A stretch of 35,455 nt of DNA from an uncultured Saprospiraceae bacterium (GTDB lineage Bacteria > Bacteroidota > Bacteroidia > Chitinophagales > Saprospiraceae). Shown here one piece after another: positions 1,993 through 33,762 of the stretch. Location of the stretch: NCBI GenBank assembly GCA_938008185.1, contig CALLLR010000240.1, forward strand, positions 1-35,455, given 5' to 3'. The translations under genes and the position numbers were made by a program. Below the pieces are notes generated by a model. That model ran no database searches and had not been told where the DNA came from. It worked only from the letters and a program-made list of their open reading frames with translations. The first letter of the stretch is position 1. Each line of letters begins with the position of its first letter.

Positions 1993-2901
1993 ATGGAAAA
2001 TAACAAAAGTAAATTAAAAGGAATTTTAAAAATCTTACTCGCCGGTTTATGCTTAACGATGCTTTTACCTTCAGAAATCTTTGCACAAAAAAGGGGAACT
2101 GTGGAACGAAGCTCAAGGTCTGATGAGGCTGTCGCCAGCAATACCAGATCCAATAGCAACCGATCTAATAATCCTCGCACCGGCAACTCCAGGACAAGCA
2201 ATTCCAGGGCGACCACATCCAACCGTACTAATACCAGATCCAGCAACAACCGGACGGCGACCGCCAGAGGGAACAACTCCAGGGTTGCCAACAACCGAAC
2301 GGCGAACACCAGAGGAAATAACTCCAGGGTTGCCAACAACCGAACGGCGAACACCAGAGGAAATAACTCCAGGGTTGCCAACAACCGAACGGCGACCGCC
2401 AGAGGAAACAACTCCAGGGTTGCCAACAACCGAACGGCGACCGCCAGATTCAACGCGCGCGGTAACCAGTTCCGTAATTTTCCAGCTCGGGGAACACGGG
2501 TAAATAATTTTCCTCGAACCGCCTCCAATATTAGATTCCGGAATGCCAACTATTGGTACAATGGAGGTATTTTCTATCAACCTTACAATGGTGCTTACAT
2601 CGTAGCTCGAGCGCCGATTGGGATTCAGATCCGGATTCTTCCTCCTAATCCTTTTCGGTTTGTTATTTATGGACGCGATTATTACTACCATTATGGGACG
2701 TACTATACGCCTAGACGAGATGGGTATTATGAAGTAGTGGATGCACCGATTGGCGCCATCGTGGATTATCTACCGGACGGGTATGAAATTTTTGAAATTG
2801 ACGGCCGTGTGTATTATTTTTTTGATGGAATATATTATAAAGCCATCGTGGATTATAGAGGTGTTGTAGCGTACGAGGTGGTTCGCAGAGGTCCGTTTTG
2901 A
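1993..2901 (+). CDS. Secreted DUF6515-family protein with Asn/Arg-rich repeats
   Basis: The product has 302 residues from the ATG at 1993. The frame is open back to 1945, but only the later start puts a normal signal peptide (MENNKSKLKG, a hydrophobic run, then IFAQ) at the N-terminus. A low-complexity Asn/Arg/Ser/Thr stretch follows. It includes four near-identical 15-residue repeats of the type NNRTANTRGNNSRVA. The C-terminal part, from about protein residue 200, is rich in Tyr and Gly and has the paired motifs YYYHYGTYYTP and VYYFFDGIYYKA, typical of DUF6515. It is probably exported or surface-exposed. The basic repeats could bind polyanions, which is speculation. It is convergent with the Kelch gene. 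Confidence 0.75.
   Translation: MENNKSKLKGILKILLAGLCLTMLLPSEIFAQKRGTVERSSRSDEAVASNTRSNSNRSNNPRTGNSRTSNSRATTSNRTNTRSSNNRTATARGNNSRVANNRTANTRGNNSRVANNRTANTRGNNSRVANNRTATARGNNSRVANNRTATARFNARGNQFRNFPARGTRVNNFPRTASNIRFRNANYWYNGGIFYQPYNGAYIVARAPIGIQIRILPPNPFRFVIYGRDYYYHYGTYYTPRRDGYYEVVDAPIGAIVDYLPDGYEIFEIDGRVYYFFDGIYYKAIVDYRGVVAYEVVRRGPF
2248..2448 (+). repeat. 45-bp in-frame tandem repeat (about 4.5 copies)
   Basis: Units lie at 2248-2292, 2293-2337, 2338-2382 and 2383-2427, with a partial fifth to 2448. Units 2 and 3 are identical and unit 4 differs at only a few bases. Because 45 is divisible by three, copy-number change would lengthen or shorten the protein without a frameshift. The near identity suggests recent expansion or ongoing homogenisation. 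Confidence 0.9.
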
Positions 2902-6918: not shown

Positions 6919-7131
6919 TTAAATATTATCTAATTCGTTTAGTAAGGTATCTAGTTCCTCCAGGTCCTGGTTGATTTCCAGTTCAAGCGTTTCGATTTCA
7001 GTATTTTCTTTTTCTATTTCAAGAACCTGCTCGGGTTCCAGGGTGACTGCGTCGTTTTTTTCCTGGGTACTATCTCCACAGGAAAAAAGCGCTAAAGTAA
7101 GGAAGGTAAGGATGATTAGTGTCTTTTTCAT
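6919..7131 (-). CDS. Small acidic lipoprotein
   Basis: 70 residues. The signal peptide MKKTLIILTFLTLALFS ends in a lipobox (LFSC) with the lipidated Cys at 18. The remaining 52 residues are strongly acidic and Leu/Ile-spaced (EIETLELEINQDLEELDTLL), so they probably form one amphipathic helix or coiled coil. The shape recalls small helical outer-membrane lipoproteins, but no homology is claimed. It is the first gene of a likely two-gene operon with the charged-repeat protein. An ATTT microsatellite lies directly upstream of its start. Confidence 0.7.
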   Translation of the reverse strand: MKKTLIILTFLTLALFSCGDSTQEKNDAVTLEPEQVLEIEKENTEIETLELEINQDLEELDTLLNELDNI

Positions 7132-7136
7132 AAAAA

Positions 7137-7155
7137 TATTTATTTATTTATTTAT
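7137..7155 (-). repeat. Tetranucleotide (TTTA) microsatellite in the lipoprotein leader
   Basis: About four and a half TTTA units begin 6 bp upstream of the lipoprotein ATG. They are placed to affect leader length or promoter spacing if the copy number varies. Confidence 0.6.
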
Positions 7156-7437
7156 TCGTTTTATGACGGGGTTTTGTAGGTTCAGTCACAATTCTTATTA
7201 TCAAGTTTTTGTATTAGAAAATGGAAAACAGGAGAATTAACAGGCCTTTCATATGTCTTTCGTTTTAAAGAAGCAAAAGATAATTGAGTTCCTATAAAAG
7301 GAATAAGTAAATTTACATTTTAATTTAGCGGCAAGGGAAGAGCAATAGTGCTACCATTGGACGATCTCAAAACTGGCTTTAAGCTCAACGGGCGAATAAG
7401 AGAAAACAAACTTAAATCAAATTATAAACTGACACCT

Positions 7438-7986
7438 ATGTTTCGTTTCTATCTTATATTTTTTTTAATACTTCCTCAATGCTTATTAATAGCGCAAGAA
7501 GGCTGGGAAACCAGACCTGAATTACCGGATGATTTTCCTCGCGTCGAACAAACTGAGGAACTGTTGTTTTTTATTCAAAGAAACCGAAATAAGAATACCA
7601 TTGTTTACGATCTTAACTTCAATACAGATGGTAGTCTAGACACTAAAAATCCAATCAATGTCTATTGGCGCAAGTTTCAGAATCATGATGGATTAAAGGA
7701 TGAACTGTCCTGGCTGGAGCTTCATTTTGCTTACGGATATCGGGCTCGTAAAAAGGACGGTTACTACTCCATCAAATTAAAAGCCTACAATGAACGAGAA
7801 ATTCAACTCACTTTCAAGGATGGACAATGGATTCCGCTGATGACCATTAATGGACAATCCTGCGTGTTGAAAAACTTGTATATTTTTGCGGATGAGTCAA
7901 AATTATGGCCTTCGGTCAAATATGCGGATATTTATGGGGAGCGTATTTTGACTGGTGAATTGGTTAAGGAGCGGATCTTGAATTAG
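7438..7986 (+). CDS. Secreted DUF4833-family protein
   Basis: 182 residues from the ATG at 7438. The frame is open upstream to 7348, but the later start places a clean signal peptide (MFRFYLIFFLILPQCLLIAQ) at the N-terminus. The mature part matches DUF4833 in length and pattern: FFIQRNRNKNTIVYDLNF, then NPINVYWRKF, GYRARKKDGYY and a closing segment naming the next strands YADIYGER. Family members are predicted periplasmic or secreted proteins of unknown role. It is a single gene. Its stop codon lies in the first unit of a GAATTA microsatellite. Confidence 0.75.
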   Translation: MFRFYLIFFLILPQCLLIAQEGWETRPELPDDFPRVEQTEELLFFIQRNRNKNTIVYDLNFNTDGSLDTKNPINVYWRKFQNHDGLKDELSWLELHFAYGYRARKKDGYYSIKLKAYNEREIQLTFKDGQWIPLMTINGQSCVLKNLYIFADESKLWPSVKYADIYGERILTGELVKERILN

Positions 7987-8003
7987 AATTAGAATTAGAA
8001 TTA
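7980..8003 (+). repeat. GAATTA hexanucleotide tandem repeat (4 units)
   Basis: Four exact GAATTA units start in the last codon of the DUF4833 gene, so the TAG stop is made by the repeat. The 238 bp that follow up to the cyclophilin start hold no convincing gene. Confidence 0.85.
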
Positions 8004-8199
8004 GAATGGGAATGACTCGTCAACGTTACTCCCAGATGGAGGGGAAATTCTAATTTGATAATTCATTTTCTCCGCGTATAAATTACCCATTCCAGCTAGT
8101 AATTTTTGCTTAAGTGAACTACCCCGACCCAAGGGTACGGGAAATTCTAAACATCGATTAAAAACACCTTCATAAGTTCCTAAAATCAAAAAAAAATCC

Positions 8200-8207
8200 T
8201 ACTTTCG
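8200..8207 (+). promoter_or_regulatory. Candidate -7 box of the cyclophilin gene
   Basis: TACTTTCG differs by one base from TAnnTTTG and lies 35 bp upstream of the ATG, implying a leader of about 25-30 nt. No -33 TTTG is seen at normal spacing. Confidence 0.4.
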
Positions 8208-8241
8208 CGCCCAATTTTAAAAATTAAAAAAACATATTAAC

Positions 8242-8673
8242 ATGAATGCAGAAATACATACTTCCAAAGGAGTTATGAAGGTGGAACTTTTCGAGAAAGA
8301 TGCGCCTAAGACCGTTAAAAATTTTGTGGATTTAATCAACAAAGGTTTTTACGACGGGCTGACTTTTCACCGGGTGATTCCTAATTTTGTGATTCAGGGA
8401 GGCTGTCCGAATGGTACTGGCGCGGGTGGACCTGGTTACCAAATTGATTGCGAAGTGGATGGAGAGAATCAATACCATGACCGTGGCGTTTTATCAATGG
8501 CACACGCGGGTAGAAATACCGGCGGATCTCAATTTTTCGTTTGTCACAGCCGGGATAATACAGCACACCTGGATGGGAATCATACTTGCTTTGGTCGGGT
8601 AACGGACGGACTGGAGGTCATTGATGCGATTAAAGGAGGTGATTTGATTGAGAAAATGGTGGTGGTGGAATAA
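8242..8673 (+). CDS. Cyclophilin-type peptidyl-prolyl cis-trans isomerase
   Basis: 143 residues, a minimal single-domain cyclophilin without a signal peptide, so cytoplasmic. It catalyses proline isomerisation during protein folding. The active-site signature is clear: [13 protein letters not shown], with the catalytic Arg in HRV; then [26 protein letters not shown] and a closing GLEVIDAI. The length matches the short bacterial PpiB-like group. A candidate promoter box lies at 8200-8207. About 105 nt past the stop is the conserved hairpin at 8778-8808, probably in its 3' UTR. Confidence 0.95.
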
Positions 8674-8777
8674 ATAATTGGTTAATTAATCTTTTTTAGG
8701 TGCTCATCCTCTATAAAGCATCTGGATTTCTTTTAGACTAAATACCCTGTGCAATAAATTTATTAATATTTAAAGAT

Positions 8778-8819
8778 GAGTCATTGGTCCTGAGTGGATT
8801 GATGACTTGTTTTGTTTTC
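8778..8819 (+). ncRNA. Conserved 13-bp-stem hairpin element, copy 1
   Basis: GAGTCATTGGTCC (8778-8790), loop TGAGT, GGATTGATGACTT (8796-8808) pair over all 13 positions as + strand RNA, with four G-U pairs. The opposite strand would have A-C mismatches at those sites. A T-rich tail (TTGTTTTGTTTTC) follows, as in an intrinsic terminator. A second copy at 11845-11886 matches 40 of 42 bases. It lies 105 nt past the cyclophilin stop. It is a terminator or 3'-UTR element of a repeat family; the molecular role is inferred. Confidence 0.6.
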
Positions 8820-8916
8820 GGCAGGTAGACTGCTTAGGATAGACTAGCTTGCACGTTGGGTTGCAACAGTTGGGGGATGTTGATTAAAGCAGGTTGTCGC
8901 CTTAAAATTGCCAGGT

Positions 8917-8935
8917 TTTTTGTATCTACACGAGG
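8917..8935 (-). repeat. Isolated REP-like half unit
   Basis: Read on the minus strand it gives CTCGTGTAGATACAAAAAA, matching the TGTAGATACAAAAAA variant at 14818-14832 in the RAYT-associated cluster. It stands alone just downstream of the S8 protease stop codon. Confidence 0.4.
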
Positions 8936-8961
8936 CGTCTTAATAAGCGCTCGGCTTTGGA

Positions 8962-10596
8962 CTACTCAACTACTATTTTTTCCAATGCTATTTTATTACC
9001 AGACTTATCCGCTATTTTAAAAAGGTAAGTACCCGTAGCTAATTTAGGGACGATCAGGGTTATGGACGAATGATCGGTCGCGATTATTTCTTTATAAATC
9101 TGCTGACCTCCTACGTTATAAATAGTGACCGTATATTTTCCAGCCACTAGATTTGAAATTTCTAACGGCGCTCCGGTGGCGATAGGGTTTGGATAAATCA
9201 AGGTATTTTGCGTCACTTCCTCCGTGGTACTAACCGCCATTGCGACGCTTGACAAAGCTTGAAAAGCGTTGATTCTTCCATGCCCATAAAATGGATCCCA
9301 ACCTTCGGTATCTTCGAAACTCCCTACTTGATCTTCGGAGGTTTCTTCCAGAATGGTTCTCATCTCATCGACCGATAAAGTCGGATCTACCGACAGCAGC
9401 AGCGACAACAAACCAGAAACCAACGGTGCCGCTTGTGAGGTTCCTCCCCAGTAGGAATTATAGTTGGTGTTTGAATTATACCTCAATCCATAAATATAAT
9501 TTCCCGGGGCCACAAAATCTAACTCAGGACCATAATTACTCCCCGTGTTCGAATTCCAGAAAAACGGTACACTTCGGGTATCATCTGAGTTGGTAGATCC
9601 AATCGCAAAGGCATTATGGTACCTGGCGGGATACTGGATAGAAGTATTTCCATTTCCAGTTGAAACAACCACGGGTACATTATTTGAATATGCATAGTTA
9701 ACTGCATTTTCCAAAAGAAAAGAAGCACTATTGCCTCCCGCAGATAAATTAATAACCGAGGCTCCGTTATCCACCGCATAATATATTGCATCTGCCCACC
9801 AACTATAAAATCCGACATTGTCTTCATCCAATATTTTACAGACCATGATTTTAGAATTCCAGTTCATTCCGGCATATCCCAGCCCATTATCTCCCGCAGC
9901 CAGAGCAATGCCCGTTACGTTGGTACCATGTCCGTGATCATCGGTCGGATCATTATCATCGTTGGCAAAATCCCAGCCGTTGACATCATCTACGAATGTA
10001 TTCAGATCACTGTCTACCCCATTATTCGCTTCGTTGGGATTGTTCCAGATTCGTGCAGCCAGCTCCGGATGGTCTAATTTTGTCCCGGAATCCAAGATCG
10101 CAACTACTAAATTCGGGTCTCCTACGGTGATGTCCCAGGCGAGTTCTGAATCTATATCGGCATCTACCGTTGCATTCGATAAAGCAAACGATCCGTCATT
10201 TAAATGAGACCATTGTTGACCAAACTCTGTATCGTCAGGTATCGTTTCAAAGCCGTGACCTTCCCCCAGAAAATCGGGCTCTACGTAATCAAACAATCCG
10301 GTGTTTTGGTATAACGCAACTAAGTCTTTCAGCGATTTATTCGTATTTAGTACCAGCACGTAAGTATCGGCATTTTTTTTATTTCCGGTCAGCCGGATGG
10401 ATTGAATCCCGTTATCTTTATTCAATAAATGAAGGACTGGATCCTCAAATCCCTGCGCTGGCAATACCACCGTTTCAGGCTTTTTGTCTTCTTTAAATTT
10501 GATGATGATTTGCTGGATGGTCGACTCCGGATTGGATTGAGCAAAAGAAAAATGGCTCACTATAAAACAGATCAGCAGGAGGGATATTTTTTTCAT
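8962..10596 (-). CDS. Secreted subtilisin-like (S8) serine protease with T9SS sorting domain
   Basis: 544 residues. Residues 1-20 are a signal peptide ending FSFAQ. Residues 21-130 look like a propeptide region. The S8 catalytic domain runs from about 145 to 450. Its triad is complete: D169 in AILDSGTKLDHPE, H223 in HGHGTNVTG and S387 in GGTSQAAPLVSG, with the oxyanion Asn at about 315 in VSTGNGN. The last roughly 75 residues form a type A T9SS domain (IYPNPIATGAPLEI, VTIYNVGGQQIY, LATGTYLFKI). It is predicted to be an exported, surface-anchored or released endopeptidase. It is monocistronic and convergent with the cyclophilin gene. Confidence 0.93.
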   Translation of the reverse strand: MKKISLLLICFIVSHFSFAQSNPESTIQQIIIKFKEDKKPETVVLPAQGFEDPVLHLLNKDNGIQSIRLTGNKKNADTYVLVLNTNKSLKDLVALYQNTGLFDYVEPDFLGEGHGFETIPDDTEFGQQWSHLNDGSFALSNATVDADIDSELAWDITVGDPNLVVAILDSGTKLDHPELAARIWNNPNEANNGVDSDLNTFVDDVNGWDFANDDNDPTDDHGHGTNVTGIALAAGDNGLGYAGMNWNSKIMVCKILDEDNVGFYSWWADAIYYAVDNGASVINLSAGGNSASFLLENAVNYAYSNNVPVVVSTGNGNTSIQYPARYHNAFAIGSTNSDDTRSVPFFWNSNTGSNYGPELDFVAPGNYIYGLRYNSNTNYNSYWGGTSQAAPLVSGLLSLLLSVDPTLSVDEMRTILEETSEDQVGSFEDTEGWDPFYGHGRINAFQALSSVAMAVSTTEEVTQNTLIYPNPIATGAPLEISNLVAGKYTVTIYNVGGQQIYKEIIATDHSSITLIVPKLATGTYLFKIADKSGNKIALEKIVVE

Positions 10597-10951
10597 TTGT
10601 TTTTTTTAAAAGGGCTATAAAGATTGGCAGATTAGGTTGGTTGCCAGATTTTCCGGTGCAGAGAAAGAAAGCAAAAGCCTGTTTTAAGGTCATCAAAGTT
10701 AGAATTACTTTGGTATAATTACAAAGCTTTTACTGTTTTTTTTGGCTTGCGGTGTGACAGCGGGGAGAAAGCACGGGTTAAGCTGCCACAGCCGGGATTT
10801 CTGTTAATCACACTTTGTAAAGTATGTTTGTGAAATAAACGATTATGGTATCATTACAAAAATTACTAAAAAATCAGTATATTACACGCTTATTACTCTA
10901 GATTAAATCAGGTCGATTGTAATATATATTTTTTATAATTTTTTTAAACCA
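10597..10951. other. Divergent intergenic region with one imperfect hairpin
   Basis: There is no gene. At 10750-10794 an imperfect hairpin (CGGTGTGACAGC against GCTGCCACAGCCG, one bulge and one mismatch) sits in an otherwise AT-rich stretch. The segment GTGTGACAGCG followed by GAGAAAGC, with TTAATCACACTTT to its right, faintly resembles the MITE at 17575-17666 and may be a very decayed copy. No riboswitch consensus matches. Confidence 0.3.
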
Positions 10952-11734
10952 ATGAAAATGAAGTATTTATTCCTTATCCCTTTATTCTCCTGCCTGCTCT
11001 TGTCTTCGTGCCATCAGGATAGCTCACTCAACCATTCGCAAGAAGCATATTCAGAGGTTCAGGATTCAGACCTTTCTGCCACTACCAGAAACAATCAATC
11101 CACCAAGCCGATCAAGGTTTTTAAAACACGGAAGGCCATCACGATAGATGGCCAGGAAAAGGACTGGAAACGAGCACCAAAACGTAAAATGCGGTTGGAA
11201 ATTGATTTGGGTTTTGAACTCGATAACAAATCTGACTTGTCGAGCTATTTCAAAATGTTGTGGGATGACGAAAATCTCTACGTTTTTGCTAGTATTTCGG
11301 ACGACGAAATCAATACGTCCGCTTCAAATATATTCGAGAAAGATGGATTCGAAATCTACCTTGACGGAAATAACAGCAAGACCCCGGCGGACTATAATGT
11401 TCCAAGTTTTCCACCTGCTGCCTACGGAAACAATACTGATTTTTTCAGGTATATCCCTGGAGAAACACAAGCACAGGGAGCCTGGGGAATTATCAATACC
11501 TCCACTTTTGAATCTGCCATTATCCTGACAGAAGATGGCTACAGCGTGGAAACCAGAATTCCATTCTCCGCTTTTCCTGATTTTTCAGCGGAAGCAGGAA
11601 CCCTTTTCGGCGTAGAATTCCAAGTTAATGACAATGACGATAATGTACGTCAACAGATTTTAAAATGGTGGTCGGATAGTGATTTTTCTTTCCTGGATCC
11701 GAGTTTATTCGGAACGGCTGTATTGTTTGAGTAA
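10952..11734 (+). CDS. Lipoprotein with a CBM9-like carbohydrate-binding domain
   Basis: 260 residues. The signal peptide ends in a lipobox (LLLSSC) with the lipidated Cys at 20, and a Ser/Gln/Asn-rich linker runs to about residue 55. The rest has the layout of a family 9 carbohydrate-binding module: ITIDGQEKDWKRAP, LWDDENLYVFASISDDEI, DGFEIYLDGNN, YSVETRIPFSAF and a GVEFQVNDND segment. In this family the fold binds sugars or calcium. It may tether polysaccharide at the cell surface, but no glycoside hydrolase domain is attached and no sugar-use genes are nearby. The conserved hairpin copy 2 follows 111 nt after the stop. Confidence 0.8.
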   Translation: MKMKYLFLIPLFSCLLLSSCHQDSSLNHSQEAYSEVQDSDLSATTRNNQSTKPIKVFKTRKAITIDGQEKDWKRAPKRKMRLEIDLGFELDNKSDLSSYFKMLWDDENLYVFASISDDEINTSASNIFEKDGFEIYLDGNNSKTPADYNVPSFPPAAYGNNTDFFRYIPGETQAQGAWGIINTSTFESAIILTEDGYSVETRIPFSAFPDFSAEAGTLFGVEFQVNDNDDNVRQQILKWWSDSDFSFLDPSLFGTAVLFE

Positions 11735-11844
11735 GTTGTTGAAAGTGTATGGTCGCGCAAAACGCAGAAAATCTAACGTGCTTACTCGACTAGCGTCTTA
11801 GACTTTTTTATTAAAAATAACAGATTTCCTTGATCTTTAAAAAC

Positions 11845-11886
11845 GAGTCATTGGTCCTGAGTGGGTTGATGACTTGTTTTATTTTC
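11845..11886 (+). ncRNA. Conserved 13-bp-stem hairpin element, copy 2
   Basis: Stem arms lie at 11845-11857 and 11863-11875 around the same TGAGT loop. It differs from copy 1 at two positions. One of them turns a U-A pair into U-G, so pairing is kept. The T-rich tail is also kept (TTGTTTTATTTTC). It lies 111 nt past the CBM9 lipoprotein stop on the same strand. Confidence 0.6.
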
Positions 11887-12077
11887 CATCGAAAAATAAT
11901 TCCCCTACTCCATCTCTCCATTCATTTTTGGACTTAAACAAAATATCCAAAAATTCAATACACACTACTCTCTATTATAGATACACGGTATTCTTGGAGT
12001 CTAGTCTCTCGGATTAAGAATAATTTTAAACCACAAAAACTAATGAGTCATAAAAATACAAAATTTCCAAACTATCG

Positions 12078-12180
12078 GTAGATACGAAAAACGTAGGACT
12101 TTGTATGTTCATCAGAAGGGAAGAATGTTTAAGTTTTCGTTTCTATACCTACCTAAAACGGTAGGCAGGTGTAAACGAAC
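12078..12180. repeat. Inverted REP-like pair 1
   Basis: A forward GTAGATACGAAAA (12078-12090) and an inverted TTTTCGTTTCTATAC unit (from 12134) flank a 43-bp spacer. The inverted unit carries an extra CCTACC/GGTAGG stem and ends in GTGTAAACGAAC at 12180. It is the most diverged of the clear copies. Confidence 0.65.
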
Positions 12181-12360
12181 ACCGCAAATTGTGCTGAAAC
12201 AATGACGCGCAGGCGTATAAAAATTTGACAATCAAGAACGCTAATAAAACTGTCTTAATAAATAAAATTTTATTTGTTATAAAATGACCCAACCTATTCG
12301 AAAAACATCCCGTCTTACCAATAAAGAAGGTAATTTTTTCAATAAAAAAACTTAAATCCC

Positions 12361-13014
12361 ATGAAGCATCTCATTTTTATTTTCTCATTTCTATTTTTAT
12401 TTTCTTCAACTTCATTTGCTCAGAAATTAAGTTTTGGGGTAGAGGCTGGACTGATCTCTTCTCAACCATACAACTCTTTTTTTTCATCCTTAAAGAGTAG
12501 ACGAAATTCTTTTAATATCGGTTTAAATCTTAATTATCAAATCTCCGAAAGTATCTCTTTGACAACAGGATTACATTATTTACGACAGGGCTACAAAAGA
12601 AAAATTTGGTTTGGGCTAGATCCCGTTGAGGAAGTTAAAGTAGTCGATAAATTTGATAACTTAGCAGTCCCCTTAGCAGTTAATTTTCATCTGCTCAAGT
12701 CAAAAAGATTAATGGTGCAATTAGGAATTAATGTTGTCTATAATTTCAATACCAAGTTAGATAATATTGAATTCTCTGCTTATCAAAATGACATAAGTAG
12801 TAATTTAAGAAATTTTAATTTACAAACTACTTTCGGAATTGGTTATAAAATCATTAAAAATGAAGATAGTGACCTTTCTATCATGCTTAAAAGTTCACCG
12901 GGGATAAGCAATATCACTTCTACGGGCTCTTTTTTTTCTAGATACGCTCCAAAAAACCACTCTTTTTCCGCAAATTTGATTTACAATTTCAAACTTAAGA
13001 AATCAAAAAAATAA
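12361..13014 (+). CDS. Outer-membrane beta-barrel protein (porin-like, OMP_b-brl type)
   Basis: 217 residues. The signal peptide MKHLIFIFSFLFLFSSTSFAQ is followed by alternating hydrophobic strands typical of an 8-stranded barrel. These include FGVEAGLISSQPYN, FNIGLNLNYQIS, SLTTGLHYLRQGYKRK, FHLLKSKRLMVQLGINV and a final FSANLIYNFKL. The layout of two short extracellular loops and a conserved glycine-rich first strand matches the PorT/OMP_b-brl group of Bacteroidota. The role is unknown, either structural or in small-molecule passage. It sits alone between two REP-like pairs. Confidence 0.75.
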   Translation: MKHLIFIFSFLFLFSSTSFAQKLSFGVEAGLISSQPYNSFFSSLKSRRNSFNIGLNLNYQISESISLTTGLHYLRQGYKRKIWFGLDPVEEVKVVDKFDNLAVPLAVNFHLLKSKRLMVQLGINVVYNFNTKLDNIEFSAYQNDISSNLRNFNLQTTFGIGYKIIKNEDSDLSIMLKSSPGISNITSTGSFFSRYAPKNHSFSANLIYNFKLKKSKK

Positions 13015-13058
13015 GTACTAAGCATGTTTGTTTAAGTGGCAGGGGCAAGCCTCTAGCT

Positions 13059-13149
13059 GTAGATACGAAAAGTCGAGTACTTGATTTGCTATCAGGAGCT
13101 AAGTTTGTCTAAGTTTTCGTTTCTACACGTGCCGTGTAGAAACGAACGA
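13059..13149. repeat. Inverted REP-like pair 2
   Basis: Forward GTAGATACGAAAA at 13059-13071 and an inverted unit at 13114-13149 flank a 42-bp spacer. The inverted unit contains a perfect 12-bp stem, CGTTTCTACACG (13118-13129) with CGTGTAGAAACG (13133-13144), around a 3-nt loop. The spacer (cacttgatttg ... tctaag) is shared with pair 3. It lies in the 380-bp gap between the two barrel genes. Confidence 0.75.
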
Positions 13150-13394
13150 GGGAAGTGTTGTCACAACGGGGCAGTTCGGGCTTGGCTTTTCGCTGTTTTT
13201 GTAGGCGCCCGGTTTCATTTAAAACAGTCTCCGCTGGTTGCGCTCACCGACAGACCCAACCAATTCCAGTTTAAGTCCGTCTTTAATTAAAGGAGAAGCA
13301 GAAAGAAAAAATTTTTCATCTGAATTCCTTATCTAAAACTAGATTTATTTAGGCCTCCCGTAAAAGTTCGTCATCATTCTTATAAAAATAAGTC

Positions 13395-14039
13395 ATGAAA
13401 AAATTAATTATTATACTGGCAGTAAGTTGTTTGTTGATTAATTTTTGCAATGGACAACATACGGGCAACGCAGATTTTATAGAAGTAGAAGGGAGAACAA
13501 GCCGATTTATTGAAAGCTCCTTTCTCGCCAATTCAAAATATCAAACTGAATTAAATAATCCATTTGAAAAATTCGAGGAGTTGCGGTTGATCCCTGCTGC
13601 TACCGAATCAAATTATGCTATCAAATTCAGATACGGTAAGCAAATCTTTGCTAAAACATATTTGATCGGAGAGCTGGGATTTTCAAAATACAACGAGCAG
13701 ACCCTATGTGTCTGCGATGTTTGTGACAAAGCGGCCAGTCCGACTACCCTGGTAAGTTTAAAGATTCTGAATTTTGGAATAGGCGTCCGCCATCAGGTAT
13801 TTCGAATGAATAGATTTAGTCTTTCCGTTGAGGCGATTGGTAGTTACTCCGTGGCGACCAATGAGTCGGGTGTTGATTATTTTGGCTACGCCATTAGTCC
13901 GGTGCTGGCTTATCAGATAACCGAAAAATGGAACCTCAATTTTAGAGCAGGATACGAACAGTCGTTTCAAGACTATCAGAAGAAAGAAAAATTTTATGGA
14001 ATTGGGGTCAATTATTTGATCAGAAAAAATAGTAGTTAG
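13395..14039 (+). CDS. Predicted secreted outer-membrane barrel protein, unrecognised
   Basis: 214 residues with signal peptide MKKLIIILAVSCLLINFCNGQ. The second half alternates short amphipathic strands (YLIGELGFSKY, LNFGIGVRHQVF, FSLSVEAIGSYSV, ISPVLAYQITEKWNLNFRAGYEQ) and ends in YGIGVNYLIRK, as in an 8- to 10-strand barrel. An unusual CVCDVCDKA motif at about residue 103 could form a disulfide or bind metal in an extracellular loop. No family name can be given. It is convergent with the transposase, with stop codons only about 11 bp apart. Confidence 0.65.
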   Translation: MKKLIIILAVSCLLINFCNGQHTGNADFIEVEGRTSRFIESSFLANSKYQTELNNPFEKFEELRLIPAATESNYAIKFRYGKQIFAKTYLIGELGFSKYNEQTLCVCDVCDKAASPTTLVSLKILNFGIGVRHQVFRMNRFSLSVEAIGSYSVATNESGVDYFGYAISPVLAYQITEKWNLNFRAGYEQSFQDYQKKEKFYGIGVNYLIRKNSS

Positions 14040-14050
14040 GAAAATACCGC

Positions 14051-14659
14051 TTACCTTCCAAGGAATACGAATCCTTCATCGTTCCAGATTCCATCCAACA
14101 AATCTATCTCAATTTTACAATTTTTTTGTTCTTCCGGTAAATGTGACTTACGATAATTTGAGGCACTACTATTCAAGTAATGTTCTGGTAATTCAACAAT
14201 TCCTGCTACTACTGGATTTCTATGAATATAATTAAGATATCGTCGAATCACCTTAGGAGTATACAACTCAATTGGATGATTACCATTTTTCCAAATCTTA
14301 TACTTACTGTTTTTTCCATCCACAATCGCAGCATTCCGGAATTGATTAAGTAACCATTCTTTTCTACTTTCCTTGCTTTCTCTACTTTCTAAAAATCGAA
14401 TTATTTGTCTGGCAGTATACGATTTAAAATCTCGAATTATTGATGATAAATCCGCTTCTCTACTAGCTCTTAGAATAAGGTGTAAATGATTAGACATGAC
14501 TACATAACCAAATATTTTTAAGCCTTTTTCATTTCTACAATAGGTTAGGCTATCTAATACAATCTCACAGATCGCTTTTCTAGTAAATAGATCAACCCAG
14601 TCGACTACGGTTATTGTTATAAAGTTTAATCCTTTTTGGTCTAAGATTTTGTAACGCAT
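14051..14659 (-). CDS. REP-associated tyrosine transposase (RAYT), HUH endonuclease
   Basis: 202 residues of the IS200-like Y1 transposase fold in the lone-gene REP-associated group. The HUH motif is H58-L-H60 in MSNHLHLIL. The nucleophile is Y81 in FKSYTARQI. A C-terminal IHRNPVVAGIV motif typical of RAYTs is also present. These enzymes cut and join single-stranded DNA at REP hairpins marked by GTAG. The gene looks intact and is not flanked by IS200/IS605 ends or a TnpB. It is surrounded by GTAG-containing inverted repeats at 13059-13149, 14771-14929 and 15158-15260, which are its likely substrates. Known RAYTs are domesticated and do not mobilise themselves freely. Family call is strong; the activity here is inferred. 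Confidence 0.92.
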   Translation of the reverse strand: MRYKILDQKGLNFITITVVDWVDLFTRKAICEIVLDSLTYCRNEKGLKIFGYVVMSNHLHLILRASREADLSSIIRDFKSYTARQIIRFLESRESKESRKEWLLNQFRNAAIVDGKNSKYKIWKNGNHPIELYTPKVIRRYLNYIHRNPVVAGIVELPEHYLNSSASNYRKSHLPEEQKNCKIEIDLLDGIWNDEGFVFLGR

Positions 14660-14770
14660 AACTAAAGGTTAGCTTTATTTTAAAATAAGATTCGCCTTAA
14701 TTTAAGAAATTTTATTTAAAACTTCTCAGTTGATTACTAATACTATTCTCATTAATAAACACCAAACTGT

Positions 14771-14929
14771 TAGTTTACATCTACATTTGTAGATACGACG
14801 TTCCTCTACATCTAATTTGTAGATACAAAAAACACAAACCATCTATACAACAGCCTTCTTATTCTAAGTGTTTTTTAAAGCTCTTTTTTGCTTGTAGAGC
14901 TGTTTCTACAGCTGGAGCTGTAAACAAAC
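14771..14929. repeat. REP-like cluster upstream of the RAYT gene
   Basis: Two forward units (TTTACATCTACATTTGTAGA from 14774, and TTTGTAGATACAAAAAAC near 14816-14833) and one inverted unit (GTTTCTACAGCTGGAGCTGT from 14902 to 14921, then AAAC) lie within 160 bp. The first unit includes a 7-bp perfect stem, ATCTACA/TGTAGAT. The cluster begins 112 bp upstream of the RAYT start codon, so it overlaps its probable promoter. Confidence 0.65.
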
Positions 14930-15027
14930 ACCTTTATTTTTGTTTGCTTTTATTAATGGTTGAGCTGGTGATACGATGGGTGTGTTGTCATAACGGGTAA
15001 CGTCGGGGCATTAAGTTCTGCGTGTTA

Positions 15028-15091
15028 CGTTTACCAAACTAGAGTATGGTGGTCGGTAAGCTCAAAGATGGTCGATAAAGTTTAGTAAACG
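15028..15091. repeat. Imperfect 13-bp inverted repeat
   Basis: CGTTTACCAAACT at 15028-15040 and AGTTTAGTAAACG at 15079-15091 are complementary at 12 of 13 positions. The interior holds two short direct copies of TGGTCGGTAA and TGGTCGATAA. It lies in the 700-bp gene-free stretch between the RAYT and dnaK and may be another diverged unit of the repeat cluster. Confidence 0.4.
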
Positions 15092-15157
15092 AATGGGAAT
15101 CGTCGTGTTCGTTGCTCGTTTAGATCCGCCTATGAGCAGCCAAAAGCCGAGCCGTTA

Positions 15158-15260
15158 GTTTACAGCTCTGGCTGTAGAGACGAAAAGCTGAGCACTTGAT
15201 TTGTATTAGCAGGAACGTTGGTCTAAGTTTTCGTTTCTACACATGACGTGTAAACGAACG
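15158..15260. repeat. Inverted REP-like pair 3
   Basis: A forward unit, GTTTACAGCTCTGGCTGTAG then AGACGAAAA (15158-15186), and an inverted unit, TTTTCGTTTCTACACATGAC then GTGTAAACGAACG (15228-15260), flank a 41-bp spacer closely related to that of pair 2. It is the most complete copy, with a palindromic arm (ACAGC/GCTGT) before the GTAG at 15174-15177. Confidence 0.75.
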
Positions 15261-15293
15261 AGGTAAAAAAATTCAATTCCCCCACCACCTCCC

Positions 15294-15332
15294 AAAAAAA
15301 AAGCCAGCCCCCTCCCGGGAACCGACTTTTTT
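15294..15332 (-). terminator. Intrinsic terminator of dnaK
   Basis: As minus-strand RNA, GUCGGUUCCC (from 15326) pairs over 10 bp with GGGGGCUGGC (to 15303) around a GGGA loop, followed by nine U residues at 15302-15294. A run of A residues lies 5' of the stem. Several G-U pairs exist only on this strand; the + strand would have A-C mismatches, so it works in the dnaK direction. Confidence 0.8.
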
Positions 15333-15345
15333 ATATCTAATACAC

Positions 15346-15366
15346 ACCCGACTCTAACAGTCGGGT
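15346..15366 (-). other. Second hairpin after dnaK
   Basis: ACCCGACT (15346-15353) and AGTCGGGT (15359-15366) form a perfect 8-bp stem with a 5-nt loop, starting 9 bp beyond the dnaK stop. No T-tract follows directly. It may protect the 3' end or back up the terminator. Confidence 0.6.
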
Positions 15367-15375
15367 TACAAAAAT

Positions 15376-17313
15376 TTACTTCGCGTCGTCCACTTCCTCA
15401 AACTCCACATCCGTTACATCTTCCGCGCCTGTTCCTGCACCTGCGTCACCTGCGTTCGCCTGATCAGTTGGGATATCTTCCGCACCGGCGCCGGCGCCGC
15501 CTTGGGCCTCCTGCTGTGCTGCGTAAATTTCCTGGCTGGCTGCTGCCCAGGCCATATTTAGCTTTTCGGTCGCGGCTTCGATCTGTGCGACGTCTTCCGT
15601 CTTCTGGGCTTCTTTCAATTCTGCCAAAGCAGTTTCGATGGGCTCCTTTTTGTCGGCGGGAATCTTCTCTCCGAATTCCTTCAGCTGTTTTTCCGTCTGG
15701 AAAGCGAGTGTGTCGGCGGCGTTGAGTTTTTCTACTTTTTCCTTCGCGGCTTTATCGGCGTCGGCGTTGGCTTCTGCTTCGGCTTTCATCTTCGCGATTT
15801 CTTCCTTGGACAATCCGGTAGATGCTTCGATCTTGATCGACTGTACTTTTCCGGTTCCTTTGTCAGAAGCGGTTACTTCCAGAATACCATCGGCGTTCAT
15901 ATCGAAAGAAACTTCGATCTGAGGCGTTCCTCTTGGCGCTGGAGGAATATCTCCGAGGATAAATCGTCCAACGGTACGGTTGTCTTTCGCCATGGATCGC
16001 TCTCCTTGCAGGATGTGGATTTCCACGGATGGCTGATTGTCCGAAGCGGTAGAATATACTTTTGATTTCTTAGCCGGAATGGTAGTATTAGATTCGATCA
16101 CCACATCGTAGATGCCATTCATCGTTTCGATACCCAAAGAAAGCGGCGTTACGTCGAGTAACAATACGTCCTTTACATCTCCACTTAAAACACCTCCCTG
16201 AATAGATGCTCCTACGGCAACTACTTCATCCGGGTTTACACTCTTATTCGGCTTCTTGCCAAAAAACTCTTCTACGGCTTGCTGAATCCGTGGGATACGG
16301 GTTGAACCACCTACGAGGATGATTTCGTCAATATCGCCTTTGCTTAATCCGGCATCTTTCAATGCTTTTGCACAAGGATCCAAGGTACGCTGTACTAATT
16401 TATCGGCTAACTGCTCAAATTTCGCACGGGTCATCTTAACCACGAGGTGCTTAGGTACGCCGTCTACTGCGGTGATGTATGGTAAGTTGATTTCCGTCTC
16501 GTTAGAAGAAGACAACTCAATCTTTGCTTTTTCCGCAGCGTCCTTTAAACGTTGTAGCGCCATCGGATCTTTGCGCAAGTCAATATTTTCCTGATCTTTA
16601 AAAGTATCCGCTAAGAAACTGATAATTACGCGATCAAAGTCGTCTCCCCCCAGGTGGGTATCACCGTTGGTAGATTTTACTTCGAAGATTCCGTCACCCA
16701 ATTCCAGGATAGAGATATCAAATGTACCTCCACCTAAATCGTATACGGCGATGGTCGCATCTTTGTCACGCTTGTCCAAACCGTACGCTAAGGCAGCAGC
16801 AGTTGGCTCGTTGATGATTCGTCGTACGGTAAGACCGGCGATTTCACCCGCTTCTTTGGTCGCCTGACGCTGTGAATCATTAAAGTAAGCAGGAACGGTA
16901 ACAACCGCTTCGGTTACTTCCTGACCCAAAAAGTCTTCTGCCGTCTTCTTCATTTTCTGAAGAATCATGGCCGATAATTCCTGTGGTGTATAAGAACGTC
17001 CGTCAATTTCCACCTTAGTGGTATTGTTGTTTCCTTTTACTACCTTATAAGGCACGTTGGCCAGTTCACCGCCTACTTCATCGAAGCGATTACCCATAAA
17101 TCTTTTGATTGATGAGATGGTACGTGTCGGATTGGTGATTGCCTGACGTTTTGCCGGATCACCGATTTTACGTTCACCATTGTCCATGAAGGCAACAACG
17201 GAGGGGGTCGTTCGTCGTCCTTCCTCGTTAGGGATAACGACGGGTTCGTTTCCTTCCATTACGGCCACACAAGAGTTGGTGGTTCCTAAATCAATTCCAA
17301 TTATTTTGCCCAT
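15376..17313 (-). CDS. dnaK: Chaperone DnaK (Hsp70)
   Basis: 645 residues, normal length. It is an ATP-dependent folding chaperone of the cytoplasm that works with DnaJ and GrpE. The nucleotide-binding domain opens with [19 protein letters not shown] and has the second phosphate motif [16 protein letters not shown] and the adenosine motif [13 protein letters not shown]. The linker is [13 protein letters not shown]. The substrate-binding domain is followed by a helical lid, a Gly/Ala-rich stretch and a C-terminal acidic EEVDD tail. No dnaJ or grpE lies within the window, so it is a lone dnaK. A cluster of TGACA repeats and a MITE lie upstream, and a strong terminator lies downstream. Confidence 0.99.
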
Positions 17314-17574: not shown

Positions 17575-17666
17575 GGGACTGTTCCCTAAAGTGTGTCAGC
17601 GCGAAAGCTTTCCTTTAGGAATACAAGGTGCGAGATGCAAAATGACACACTTATTTGGATAGTCCC
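17575..17666. mobile_element. 92-bp MITE with target-site duplication
   Basis: The ends are 24-bp imperfect inverted repeats (17575-17598 and 17643-17666, 17 of 24 complementary) beginning GGGACT and ending AAGTGTGTCA. Directly outside, GGAAAACT occurs at 17567-17574 and again at 17667-17674, a perfect 8-bp duplication. The element is too short to code for anything. The ends and duplication length recall IS256-type elements, which is inference; no parent transposase lies in the window. A diverged inverted relative lies at about 33673-33762. Confidence 0.85.
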
Positions 17667-17868
17667 GGAAAACTCGTCATTCTCTTATCAATATCATATA
17701 TTTGGAAGACCAGCATATTTAAACTACTAAAGCTTTAACATTCAATTCAGAGCAAATCTTCTAAATTCATAAGGAATCCGAATCTGTATCTATTTCAAAA
17801 TATTCCGTTATGATTGTTAACAAGACGTTAATTAACAGTTAAGAATAAAGGATCGACCTGAAATTGTA

Positions 17869-20872: not shown

Positions 20873-22351
20873 ATGAAAAAATACTTCTATATTTTTCTTT
20901 TCCTTTGTCTATCCGGTCATTACCTTTCAGCTCAAACAAAGACCCTAAAATTAAGTCTGGCTGAATTAATCGAGATGGCACAAGGAGACGCACCGGATGT
21001 ACAAATTGCCAAAACTAAATTAACCACGAACTACTGGTCTAATCAATCTTTTTTAGCGAATTATAAACCTAAAATTAATTTTAATGGAGAGTTACCAAAC
21101 CTAAATCGAAGTATCCGGGAAATTACTCTACCGAATGGAGAACAGAGTTTTACTCCAACTGCATTTATGAATAATTCTATTGGCTTTAGTTTGGAACAAG
21201 ATATTGCCCTGACGGGAGGAAGTGTATTTGCCAGTACCAGTTTGGAGCGACTGGATATTTTTAAAACGGATATTAACCCCAAATCAATCTCTTATTTATC
21301 CACACCAATCGTAGTTGGTTTTAATCAACCGTTTTTTGGTTTTAATAGTTTAAAATGGGACAAAAAAATTGAGCCCTTACGCTATGATGAAGCAATTCGG
21401 GAATACAGTGAAGAAATACAAATGGTTGCTTATGATGGCGCTGTTTTTTTCTTTGAAGTTTTTATTTCTCAAATAAATCTGGAAGCCGCTAATCGAAACA
21501 AAGTCAACGCAGATACTTTATTTTCGATTTCTAAAGGAAGGTATAGTGTGGGAAGAATTGCAGAAACAGAGTTGTTGCAAATTGAATTAGGAGCGATGAA
21601 TGCCGATACAGAATTGGCGGAAGCTACCCTGAATCTGCAGTCCAATACCGAAGGATTAAGGAATTTTTTAGGAATTAGAAATCCCATTCAATTTGATTTA
21701 ATAGCACCAGATAAAATACCTGATTTTCAAATAGACGCTAATCTGGCTTTAGATTATGCCCGGAAAAACAGGAGTAAAACTATTGAATTTCAACGAAGGT
21801 TAGAACAATCAGAACAAGCGATTGCAGAAGCAAAAGGCGCAAACGGTCGAAGCATTAATTTATTTGGTCGTTTTGGTTTAAGCCAAACTGCTAAAAATCT
21901 GGGAGATGCATTTAATAATCCAATCGACCAGGAACAACTCTCCCTGGGCATTCAAATTCCAATTGCAGATTGGGGGAAAGCAAAATCAAGAATCGAAATT
22001 GCCCGGTCAAGTCGCGAATTAGAACGCATGAATATCGAACAGGAACGGATCAGTTTCGAACAAGAAGTACTACTTCGAGTCAAGCAATTTGATTTGATCA
22101 GAAAACAAGTCGCACTAGCGGTACGCGCTTACGATGCCTCAAAAAAACGAGAAGAGATTACCCGGAAAAGGTACTTCATTGGAAAGATTGGAATCACCGA
22201 TCTTAACCTCGCCATCCGTGAACAAAATGAAGCCCGGATAAAATATATGACTGCACTTCGCGCTTTTTGGTTGGCTTATTACGAACTGAGAAATCTGACT
22301 TTATACGATTTTGAAAAAGAACAAAGCCTGGTAAAAGAAGTGGATAGATAG
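20873..22351 (+). CDS. TolC-family outer-membrane efflux protein
   Basis: 492 residues with signal peptide MKKYFYIFLFLCLSGHYLSAQ. Two outer-membrane-factor repeats are seen. Each has long helices rich in Glu/Ala/Gln (NAVADTELAEATLNLQ-like pattern at about 220-260; KSRIEIARSSRELERMNIEQ at about 365-385) and a terminal ITDLNLAIREQNEARIKYM helix before a final AFWLAYYELRNLTLYDF segment. Such proteins trimerise into a barrel plus periplasmic tunnel. Adaptor and permease genes directly precede it, so it is the exit duct of that system. The 148-bp gap before it leaves room for an internal promoter. Confidence 0.92.
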   Translation: MKKYFYIFLFLCLSGHYLSAQTKTLKLSLAELIEMAQGDAPDVQIAKTKLTTNYWSNQSFLANYKPKINFNGELPNLNRSIREITLPNGEQSFTPTAFMNNSIGFSLEQDIALTGGSVFASTSLERLDIFKTDINPKSISYLSTPIVVGFNQPFFGFNSLKWDKKIEPLRYDEAIREYSEEIQMVAYDGAVFFFEVFISQINLEAANRNKVNADTLFSISKGRYSVGRIAETELLQIELGAMNADTELAEATLNLQSNTEGLRNFLGIRNPIQFDLIAPDKIPDFQIDANLALDYARKNRSKTIEFQRRLEQSEQAIAEAKGANGRSINLFGRFGLSQTAKNLGDAFNNPIDQEQLSLGIQIPIADWGKAKSRIEIARSSRELERMNIEQERISFEQEVLLRVKQFDLIRKQVALAVRAYDASKKREEITRKRYFIGKIGITDLNLAIREQNEARIKYMTALRAFWLAYYELRNLTLYDFEKEQSLVKEVDR

Positions 22352-33474: not shown

Positions 33475-33483
33475 GGGGCGGAT

Positions 33484-33616
33484 GGGCTTTTTTGCTCTTT
33501 TGGCGGGTTTGGCTTTCGGTGGGCGGACGATGGGCTTTTTTGCTCTTCTTTCGGGTTTGGCTTTCGGTGGGCTTTTTTGCTCTTTTAGCGGGTTTGGCTT
33601 TCGGTGGGCGGACGAT
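33484..33616. repeat. 37-bp tandem repeats after purB
   Basis: Units at 33484-33520, 33532-33568 and 33569-33605 share GGGCTTTTTTGCTC and GGGTTTGGCTTTCGGT. An 11-bp spacer GGGCGGACGAT follows units 1 and 3 only. Degenerate copies continue to about 33670. Unit lengths are not multiples of three, so the open frames across it (Pro/Lys/Ala-rich on the minus strand, Phe/Gly-rich on the plus) are unlikely to be real proteins. Confidence 0.85.
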
Positions 33617-33672
33617 TGGCTTTCTGTTTTCGTGGGCTCTTCAATTGGTGAGGCTTTCGGTGGGCTTTTGAG

Positions 33673-33762
33673 GGGCGTTAGAATCAAGTGTGTTAGTTAG
33701 CTTTGCGCACCTTGTGTTCCTCAAGGAAAGCTTTCGCGCTGACAGATTTTAGAGAACAGTTC
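33673..33762. mobile_element. Decayed relative of the 92-bp MITE, inverted
   Basis: The segment 33706-33759, read on the minus strand, matches 17579-17632 at 49 of 54 positions, including TCAGCGCGAAAGCTTTCC. A remnant of the other end (AAGTGTGTTA on the + strand) is at about 33686-33695. The outer GGGACT ends are blurred and no target duplication is visible. Confidence 0.7.

Follow-up and report, generated by a model that had tools for sequence, protein, structure and literature searches.

Two near-identical hairpins in the window, the whole 35,455-nt stretch of DNA analysed here from an uncultured Saprospiraceae bacterium, are very probably intrinsic (Rho-independent) terminators, and local duplication or recombination is the likely source of the pair. 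Each lies 3′ of a gene on its own strand, copy 1 behind a cyclophilin-type peptidyl-prolyl isomerase gene (ppi) and copy 2 behind a CBM9-domain gene (Table 1). Positions 8778-8819 and 11845-11886 are identical at 40 of 42 bases, loop and tail included, and the likeness extends to 57 nt at 89% (8763-8819 / 11830-11886), while the 200-nt flanks outside this match score no better than shuffles and a longer duplicated segment was not found there. The alignment and the flank scores thus confirm the preliminary description, which had reported a 40/42 match within differing DNA. One difference (A/G) falls in the 3′ arm and turns a U-A into a U-G pair, so that pairing is kept, as had been described; the other (G/A) lies in the tail. 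Similar distances from gene to element had also been claimed, and indeed the cyclophilin stop ends at 8673, 104 nt before the 42-mer of copy 1, and the CBM9 stop at 11734, 110 nt before that of copy 2. A 32-base pattern with ≤3 mismatches matches the window only at 8778-8809 and 11845-11876 (mean of 0.00 matches in 100 shuffles), and at the same tolerance no further copies were found in the organism's own 3.84-Mb assembly, which is 64% complete and may hide more.

Table 1. Coordinates of the twin hairpins and of neighbouring features in the window
Feature	Position	Strand	Remarks
Cyclophilin-type peptidyl-prolyl isomerase gene (ppi)	8242..8673	+	followed by copy 1; Pfam PF00160, E 5.5e-44
Terminator hairpin copy 1 (predicted)	8769..8819	+	A tract, 18-bp stem, loop, T-rich stretch
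Copy 1 stem	8773-8790 with 8796-8813	+	18 bp
Copy 1 loop	8791-8795	+	TGAGT
Copy 1 T-rich stretch	8810-8818	+	first four bases pair with A tract
Segment flanked by the twins as direct repeats	8820..11835	.	both its genes absent in syntenic G005 stretch
S8 peptidase gene with T9SS sorting tail, between the twins	8962..10596	-	Pfam PF00082, PF18962
CBM9-domain gene	10952..11734	+	followed by copy 2; Pfam PF06452
Terminator hairpin copy 2 (predicted)	11836..11886	+	A tract, 18-bp stem, loop, T-rich stretch
Copy 2 stem	11840-11857 with 11863-11880	+	18 bp
Copy 2 loop	11858-11862	+	TGAGT
Copy 2 T-rich stretch	11877-11885	+	
Y1/RAYT transposase (Y1_Tnp)	14051-14659	-	2.2 kb from copy 2

Both twins form a stable RNA hairpin with a 5-nt loop, whose stem, given as 13 bp in the preliminary description, reaches 18 bp once the A and U tracts are counted. 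As + strand RNA, copy 1 folds at −20.7 kcal/mol (z −4.6) and copy 2 at −19.4 (z −3.3), with 0/200 and 1/200 shuffles folding as well, whereas the − strand gives −8.2 (z −2.6) and −11.0 kcal/mol (z −1.6), in agreement with the strand-specific fold proposed earlier. For a bidirectional terminator, with an A tract before, a T tract after and a hairpin that is stable on either strand, the signs are mixed: the − strand folds of the twins are weak, yet copy 2 (not copy 1) also matches the arm pattern on that strand, and the orthologue in G003 matches it in both directions. A U-rich tract, part of which pairs with the A tract, closes the stem in each twin; the T-rich stretches, TTTTGTTTTC and TTTTATTTTC, contain 8 T in 10, as expected from the U-rich tail already noticed, and both are interrupted. 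An RNA polymerase leaving the cyclophilin or CBM9 gene would transcribe the stem, the loop and the U-rich stretch; the hairpin would fold behind the enzyme and the weak U-A hybrid would release. The G-U pairs and the T-rich side would make the structure stronger on the + strand.

The twins resemble other predicted terminators sampled from their own genome. A scan for hairpins followed by a T tail, which trims A-T closing pairs and which both twins pass, gave 33 sense sites in 490 kb (window included; two convergent places entered once per strand), among which the twins, trimmed like for like (−19.6 and −18.4 kcal/mol), rank 14th and 16th. In same-direction gaps of this genome (G000) and the congener G004 together, there are 33 sense sites (including copy 2) versus 13 antisense sites (p = 0.0045), an excess suggesting that the lineage uses such sites. 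A stricter consensus terminator scan lists copy 2 and not copy 1, but it does not discriminate, since it gives 7 sites versus 7.3 in shuffles.

Furthermore, in 5/5 genus genomes where the orthologous cyclophilin gene was found, it is followed by a homologous hairpin and U tail, with 22-228 nt between stop and A tract; together with the shape typical of the sampled sites, this favours the terminator among the options of the preliminary description. Copy 1 occupies the position that the putative inherited cyclophilin terminator has in the congeners. The cyclophilin hairpins of G000, G002, G003 and G004 differ at 5-11 of 32 positions (a comparison that leaves out the shorter hairpin of G005), and loop sequence and gene distance vary among genus hairpins, so neither is conserved. 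The loop described as invariant is therefore so in the window twins only, and the suggestion that conservation exceeds what a plain terminator requires is not supported. Changes within the stem are mostly one-sided wobble changes, and the compensatory changes for which a search had been proposed are weak: both sides change at 1 pair in 7 sequences, which 325/500 shuffles reach, and at 3 pairs in 9 sequences, which 44/500 reach. Alignment A2 omits the G005 hairpin because its stem is shorter, and A3 includes it with inner pairs gapped or misaligned.

A 3′-UTR regulatory element or a small RNA family, whether a protein-binding hairpin or a 3′-UTR-derived sRNA, would be conserved beyond termination. 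The near-identity of the twins is in line with this, as are six stem pairs (columns 9, 12, 13, 15, 16 and 22) that are invariant over the sequences with letters there; the varying loop and gene distance, the unrelated DNA upstream of the twins, 0 window matches at gathering score in Rfam 15 and the terminator-like appearance of the five weak family matches inspected make such an element, also raised in the preliminary description, very unlikely. These five loci, from three genomes, came from a family search (39 candidates scored per genome) in which 32/150 genomes, including genus members G000, G004 and G005, have a match at E ≤ 0.01, all matches outside the genus being <46 bits; they prove to be different hairpins with partly shared arms, resembling other terminators, and were not included as members. 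The outer arm GAGTCAT...ATGACTC recurs in hairpins at two other orthologous genus loci and, with variation, in 4/5 inspected family matches, as might be expected if terminators had become alike by convergence. Convergence is possible for the weaker matches; for the twins we give independent evolution hardly any credence, as those loci share arm parts only while the twins also share loop and tail, and a comparison of 526 predicted-terminator pairs from the G000 sample puts the twins first with a score of 39, the runner-up reaching 15. A viral origin was considered and rejected, one degenerate pattern giving 0 matches in a viral contig set.

Across seven genus genomes, with 150 candidates scored per genome, ten strong matches (>50 bits to the R1 model, which nine of the ten had served to build) were obtained, 1-4 in each of the five genomes having any, and all share contig and strand with the cyclophilin gene. 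An intact same-strand gene precedes eight of them and a broken DUF2911 3′ end one; G004:C46:2502, also among the ten, and a weaker fifth G004 match (21503) are preceded by no intact same-strand gene. The random strand and position named in the preliminary description as counter-evidence are thus not seen. Similar copies follow the DUF2911 gene in congeners, and in G003 DUF2911 ends in an unrelated hairpin. In G004, 13079 and 6591 match over 228 nt at 79%, the DUF2911 3′ end being duplicated with the hairpin, and 16784 (ppi) and 2502 match over 85 nt at 75%. Such visible duplication of gene-end-plus-hairpin segments in one congener points to local copying as the probable source of the twins, and the second copy as well as the DUF2911 copies probably arose by local duplication or recombination at the locus. 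The terminator would be most of what stays recognisable because it is, presumably, under selection. Near-identical hairpins behind unrelated genes can thus be locally copied terminators, selection keeping the hairpin while the flanks drift.

It is also possible, though on balance we doubt it, that recombination at short terminator homology brought in or exchanged the S8-CBM9 segment, leaving the hairpins as direct repeats, which is compatible with a terminator function. Indeed, in six other genus genomes the S8 peptidase is without a match at E ≤ 1e-30 and the CBM9 gene at E ≤ 1e-20, and among 40 relatives the latter cut-off is passed only in the organism's own genome and in G011 (33-34% identity). 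The syntenic stretch of G005 (DUF4833 - ppi - one hairpin - RAYT - DnaK - amidohydrolase - BamA - TamB) lacks the segment, and the genes between the same-strand copies differ in G002 and G004. However, the G005 stretch also lacks OMP1 and OMP2 (after copy 2) and HlyD, MacB and TolC-type genes (after DnaK), so the region varies at hairpin-free places too; its hairpin is of a different subtype, the GC content of the segment (0.415) is close to that of the window (0.406), and selection on two duplicated terminators would leave the same picture. It is improbable that terminators here double as recombination sites and make the locus a terminator-bounded cassette region, in which same-strand homologous terminators behind successive modules would allow gene-plus-terminator units to be swapped, gained or lost with no dedicated integrase taking part. 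If this were true, short terminator homology would shape gene content in Saprospiraceae.

REP hairpins are recognised as single strands, and the strand-specific hairpin here has a Y1_Tnp protein nearby, which might have moved it as a small REP-like element. The RAYT motifs NHLH and YIHRNP resemble those of Bacteroidetes subclass 2.6, whose genes are reported to be flanked by atypical secondary structures (PMC6006769), and a RAYT gene sits beside the ppi hairpin in G005 too. However, the strong copies are few and confined to the cyclophilin contig, and a search at E ≤ 1e-4 found no RAYT along the entire 25-kb contig of G004 that carries four strong copies, or in the examined stretches of G002 (7.9 kb) and G003 (4.2 kb). 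Other repeats surround the RAYT in the window, and in G005 it is flanked by 87-nt direct repeats unlike the hairpin. We therefore regard transposition as highly unlikely, and the mobile terminator of the preliminary description, read as a dispersed element, is not supported; the copying looks local.

Several known systems invite comparison with these putative terminators. Integron attC sites are same-strand hairpins at gene 3′ ends with the core consensus GTTRRRY/RYYYAAC. The twins share this placement; unlike attC, their stem is plain and unbulged, and attC was rejected, inspection by eye against this consensus revealing no such cores in 8769-8819 or 11836-11886. No integron integrase was noticed among the window ORFs when their list was checked by eye. 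With REP/RAYT systems the twins share a short strand-specific hairpin outside genes and a neighbouring Y1_Tnp gene, but the many dispersed copies of REPs are not seen (two in the own genome at ≤3 mismatches), and the hairpin does not flank the window transposase. In the uptake-signal terminators of Neisseria and Pasteurellaceae (PMC1852404), arms likewise share a short motif between genes, but that motif generally has at least 1,000 occurrences per genome, whereas here there are two copies of the full hairpin and, on the forward strand, 1-3 occurrences of the outer-arm pattern per genome. Among the sampled terminators it is unusual for one neighbourhood to contain two near-identical copies. 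What the twins have in common with intrinsic terminators is a stable hairpin after the stop, a short loop, a U-rich tail, a U tract that pairs with an A tract, and a stem and folding energy in keeping with the 33 predicted sense sites.

The two 42-base hairpin elements of the window differ at 2 positions, and their similarity spans 57 nt at 89%. The 200-nt flanks beyond this stretch show no more similarity than shuffles do (5′ alignment score 11 versus a shuffled mean of 9.7 and maximum of 15; 3′ score 8 versus 9.3 and 13), and together these comparisons confirm the preliminary description of 42-bp twins with two mismatches set in unlike DNA. A 32-base pattern (≤3 mismatches) matches only the twins in the window, with no match in 100 shuffles; the twins are also its only matches in their own genome (G000; a 3.84-Mb assembly in 281 contigs, 64% completeness), and a scan of 60 relatives added one match, in the congener G002. 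The + strand RNA of each twin is predicted to fold into a single 18-bp stem with the loop UGAGU, at −20.7 and −19.4 kcal/mol (equalled by 0 and 1 of 200 shuffles, respectively) versus −8.2 and −11.0 kcal/mol on the − strand. Strong folding on the + strand only, in line with the original claim, is borne out, as is the hairpin itself, although its stem is 18 bp rather than 13 bp once the A tract and the U tract are counted.

Coordinates of the twin hairpins, nearby genes and other repeats in the window
Feature	Position	Strand	Remarks
Hairpin copy 1	8778-8819	+	42 bases, 104 nt past cyclophilin (PF00160) stop
Hairpin copy 2	11845-11886	+	42 bases, 110 nt past CBM9 gene (PF06452) stop
S8 peptidase gene	between copies 1 and 2	opposite to cyclophilin and CBM9 genes	
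Two genes	beyond copy 2		one outer-membrane beta-barrel, one without Pfam match
Y1_Tnp (RAYT-like) gene	14051-14659	-	motifs NHLH and YIHRNP
Repeats around RAYT	12070-15260		related to GTTTCTACA-palindrome-TGTAAACGAAC
GAATTA-type short repeats	7980-8013		upstream of cyclophilin; downstream of it in G002 (locus L046, near 7430-7480)
Tandem repeats	2199-2468		45 bp, within DUF6515 gene; more than one frame open
Inverted repeat pair	17578-17672 / 33666-33760		95 nt, 79% complementary, 16 kb apart
Short repeats	33483-33623		33-56 nt (TGGGCTTTTTTGCTC...GGTTTGGCTTTCGGTGGGC), directly past gene end at 33474

Cyclophilin is present at E ≤ 1e-40 in five of the seven genus genomes (G000, G002, G003, G004 and G005) and was not found at that threshold in G001 or G006. 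Downstream of the gene, all five carry a U-tailed hairpin with recognisably similar arms, shorter in G005; no such hairpin lies within the 330 nt read in G022, a relative with the next closest cyclophilin protein (82%). The loops are TGAGT, TAAAA, TAAAT and AATTA, and the distance from the stop to the start of the A tract is 95 nt in G000, 84 in G002, 228 in G003, 22 in G004 and 181 in G005. The invariant loop and spacing proposed from the window therefore do not hold among genus homologues, with four loop types and A tracts 22–228 nt past the stop. In seven equal-length sequences, 96.8% of cells pair and variation is mainly in one-sided wobbles. The suggested check for compensatory changes found stem pairing kept and both-sided change weak: one pair in these seven sequences, not above shuffles (matched by 325 of 500), and three pairs in nine sequences (matched by 44 of 500), whose covariation score was reached in 4 of 500 shuffles and whose slid controls gave 31–53% pairing. 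Together, these alignments support a maintained stem and would point weakly to covariation.

A covariance model built from nine sequences was run on the seven genus genomes, scoring 150 of ~870–2150 first-look candidates per genome. Among the candidates scored, ten exceed 50 bits (four in G004, two each in G000 and G002, and one each in G003 and G005), nine of them themselves in the model, and the next reaches 43.5 bits. All ten lie on cyclophilin's contig and strand. The other genes preceding strong copies are CBM9 (G000) and DUF2911 (PF11138; G002 and G004), and the G003 DUF2911 gene ends in a different hairpin. One G004 hairpin follows a broken copy, 69 codons long, of the DUF2911 3′ end. 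No intact same-strand gene precedes the copy at 2502 of G004 contig C46 or the fifth G004 match, a weaker one of 36.6 bits at 21503. Pattern scans matched G004 and G002 contigs alone in genome_contigs (uncultured Saprospiraceae; the window's own genome was possibly outside the scan) and nothing in viral_contigs. The outer arm GAGTCAT...ATGACTC also occurs in terminator-like hairpins between convergent genes at two other orthologous genus loci. Across the family, 32 of 150 genomes (G000, G004 and G005 included) yield model matches with E ≤ 0.01; outside the genus every such match scores below 46 bits, and the five loci read, from three genomes, are other A-tract/T-tract hairpins. G104, a genome of the family, has 12 matches at E ≤ 0.01 in nine places, of which the three read (L152, L153 and L154) are terminator-like hairpins with GAGTCAT-type arms; a single terminator stem may be preferred in this genome.

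The G004 segments preceding 13079 and 6591 resemble each other over 228 nt (79%), a match that takes in the DUF2911 gene end and the hairpin; those at 2502 and, after cyclophilin, at 16784 are alike over 85 nt (75%), in a match that starts 33 nt ahead of the hairpin unit. Both pairs are interpreted as gene ends copied together with their hairpin by local direct duplication. In the window twins, likeness is left in the hairpin unit only. Over 32 positions in eight copies (G005 and 2502 left out), the twins differ from each other at one and from every other copy at more; the G002 DUF2911 copy comes next (3–4 differences), and copy 1 differs from the cyclophilin copies of G002, G003 and G004 at 7–10. 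As the twins are mutually closest among the copies compared, they probably go back to recent copying, either of one twin from the other or of both from a third copy. A literature query on terminator duplication combined with gene conversion gave no hit at its threshold, which does not prove absence from print.

G005 is syntenic with the window, in the order DUF4833, cyclophilin, one hairpin, RAYT, DnaK, amidohydrolase, BamA and TamB. Between the first hairpin and RAYT, the window has the S8 peptidase and CBM9 genes, the second hairpin and a further two genes. No match to S8 or CBM9 turned up in the six congeners at the cut-offs used, and a hairpin stands on either side of the pair; the twins are therefore direct repeats bounding a genome-specific segment. 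Recombination at terminators, which would have produced direct repeats around this segment, fits the arrangement, but so does plain duplication followed by insertion. The segment has ordinary GC (0.415 versus 0.406 for the window), and G005 is also without other window genes at hairpin-free places, namely the two genes after copy 2 and those of HlyD, MacB and TolC type after DnaK (the names of these last three come from reading the ORFs). The possible part of a repeated terminator in reshuffling its neighbourhood is the remaining interest.

The NHLH and YIHRNP motifs of the RAYT resemble subclass 2.6 of Bacteroidetes as set out in PMC6006769. The surrounding repeats differ in their inner letters and keep the palindrome in most copies; under a strict pattern, 13 copies are spread over five of the seven genus genomes, and they are a candidate REP-like family. 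The orthologous G005 RAYT (65% identity) also lies between cyclophilin and DnaK, flanked by 87-nt direct repeats of 95% identity (L157, contig C216, 906-992 and 1846-1932) that begin directly past the cyclophilin terminator.

Terminator-like sites were surveyed in 490 kb of G000, the window among them, and in 345 kb of G004, a simple ORF rule supplying the gene calls. Over both genomes together, T-tailed hairpins in same-direction gaps are sense to the upstream gene in 33 cases versus 13 antisense (p = 0.0045), and their density is 0.76 per kb in convergent versus 0.38 in divergent gaps in G000 and 0.96 versus 0.16 in G004. By energy the twins rank 14th and 16th, midway down the G000 list of 33 sense sites, and they resemble the other sites on it. 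A ready-made consensus terminator scan of 7000-15500 listed copy 2 and missed copy 1, returning 7 sites versus 7.3 from shuffles. The hairpin is most likely an ordinary intrinsic terminator that has probably been duplicated locally. Intrinsic terminators are predicted and used for annotation in the Bacteroidota model B. thetaiotaomicron (PMC7366714), and an A tract pairing with the U tract is discussed as a terminator feature (PMC12207403).
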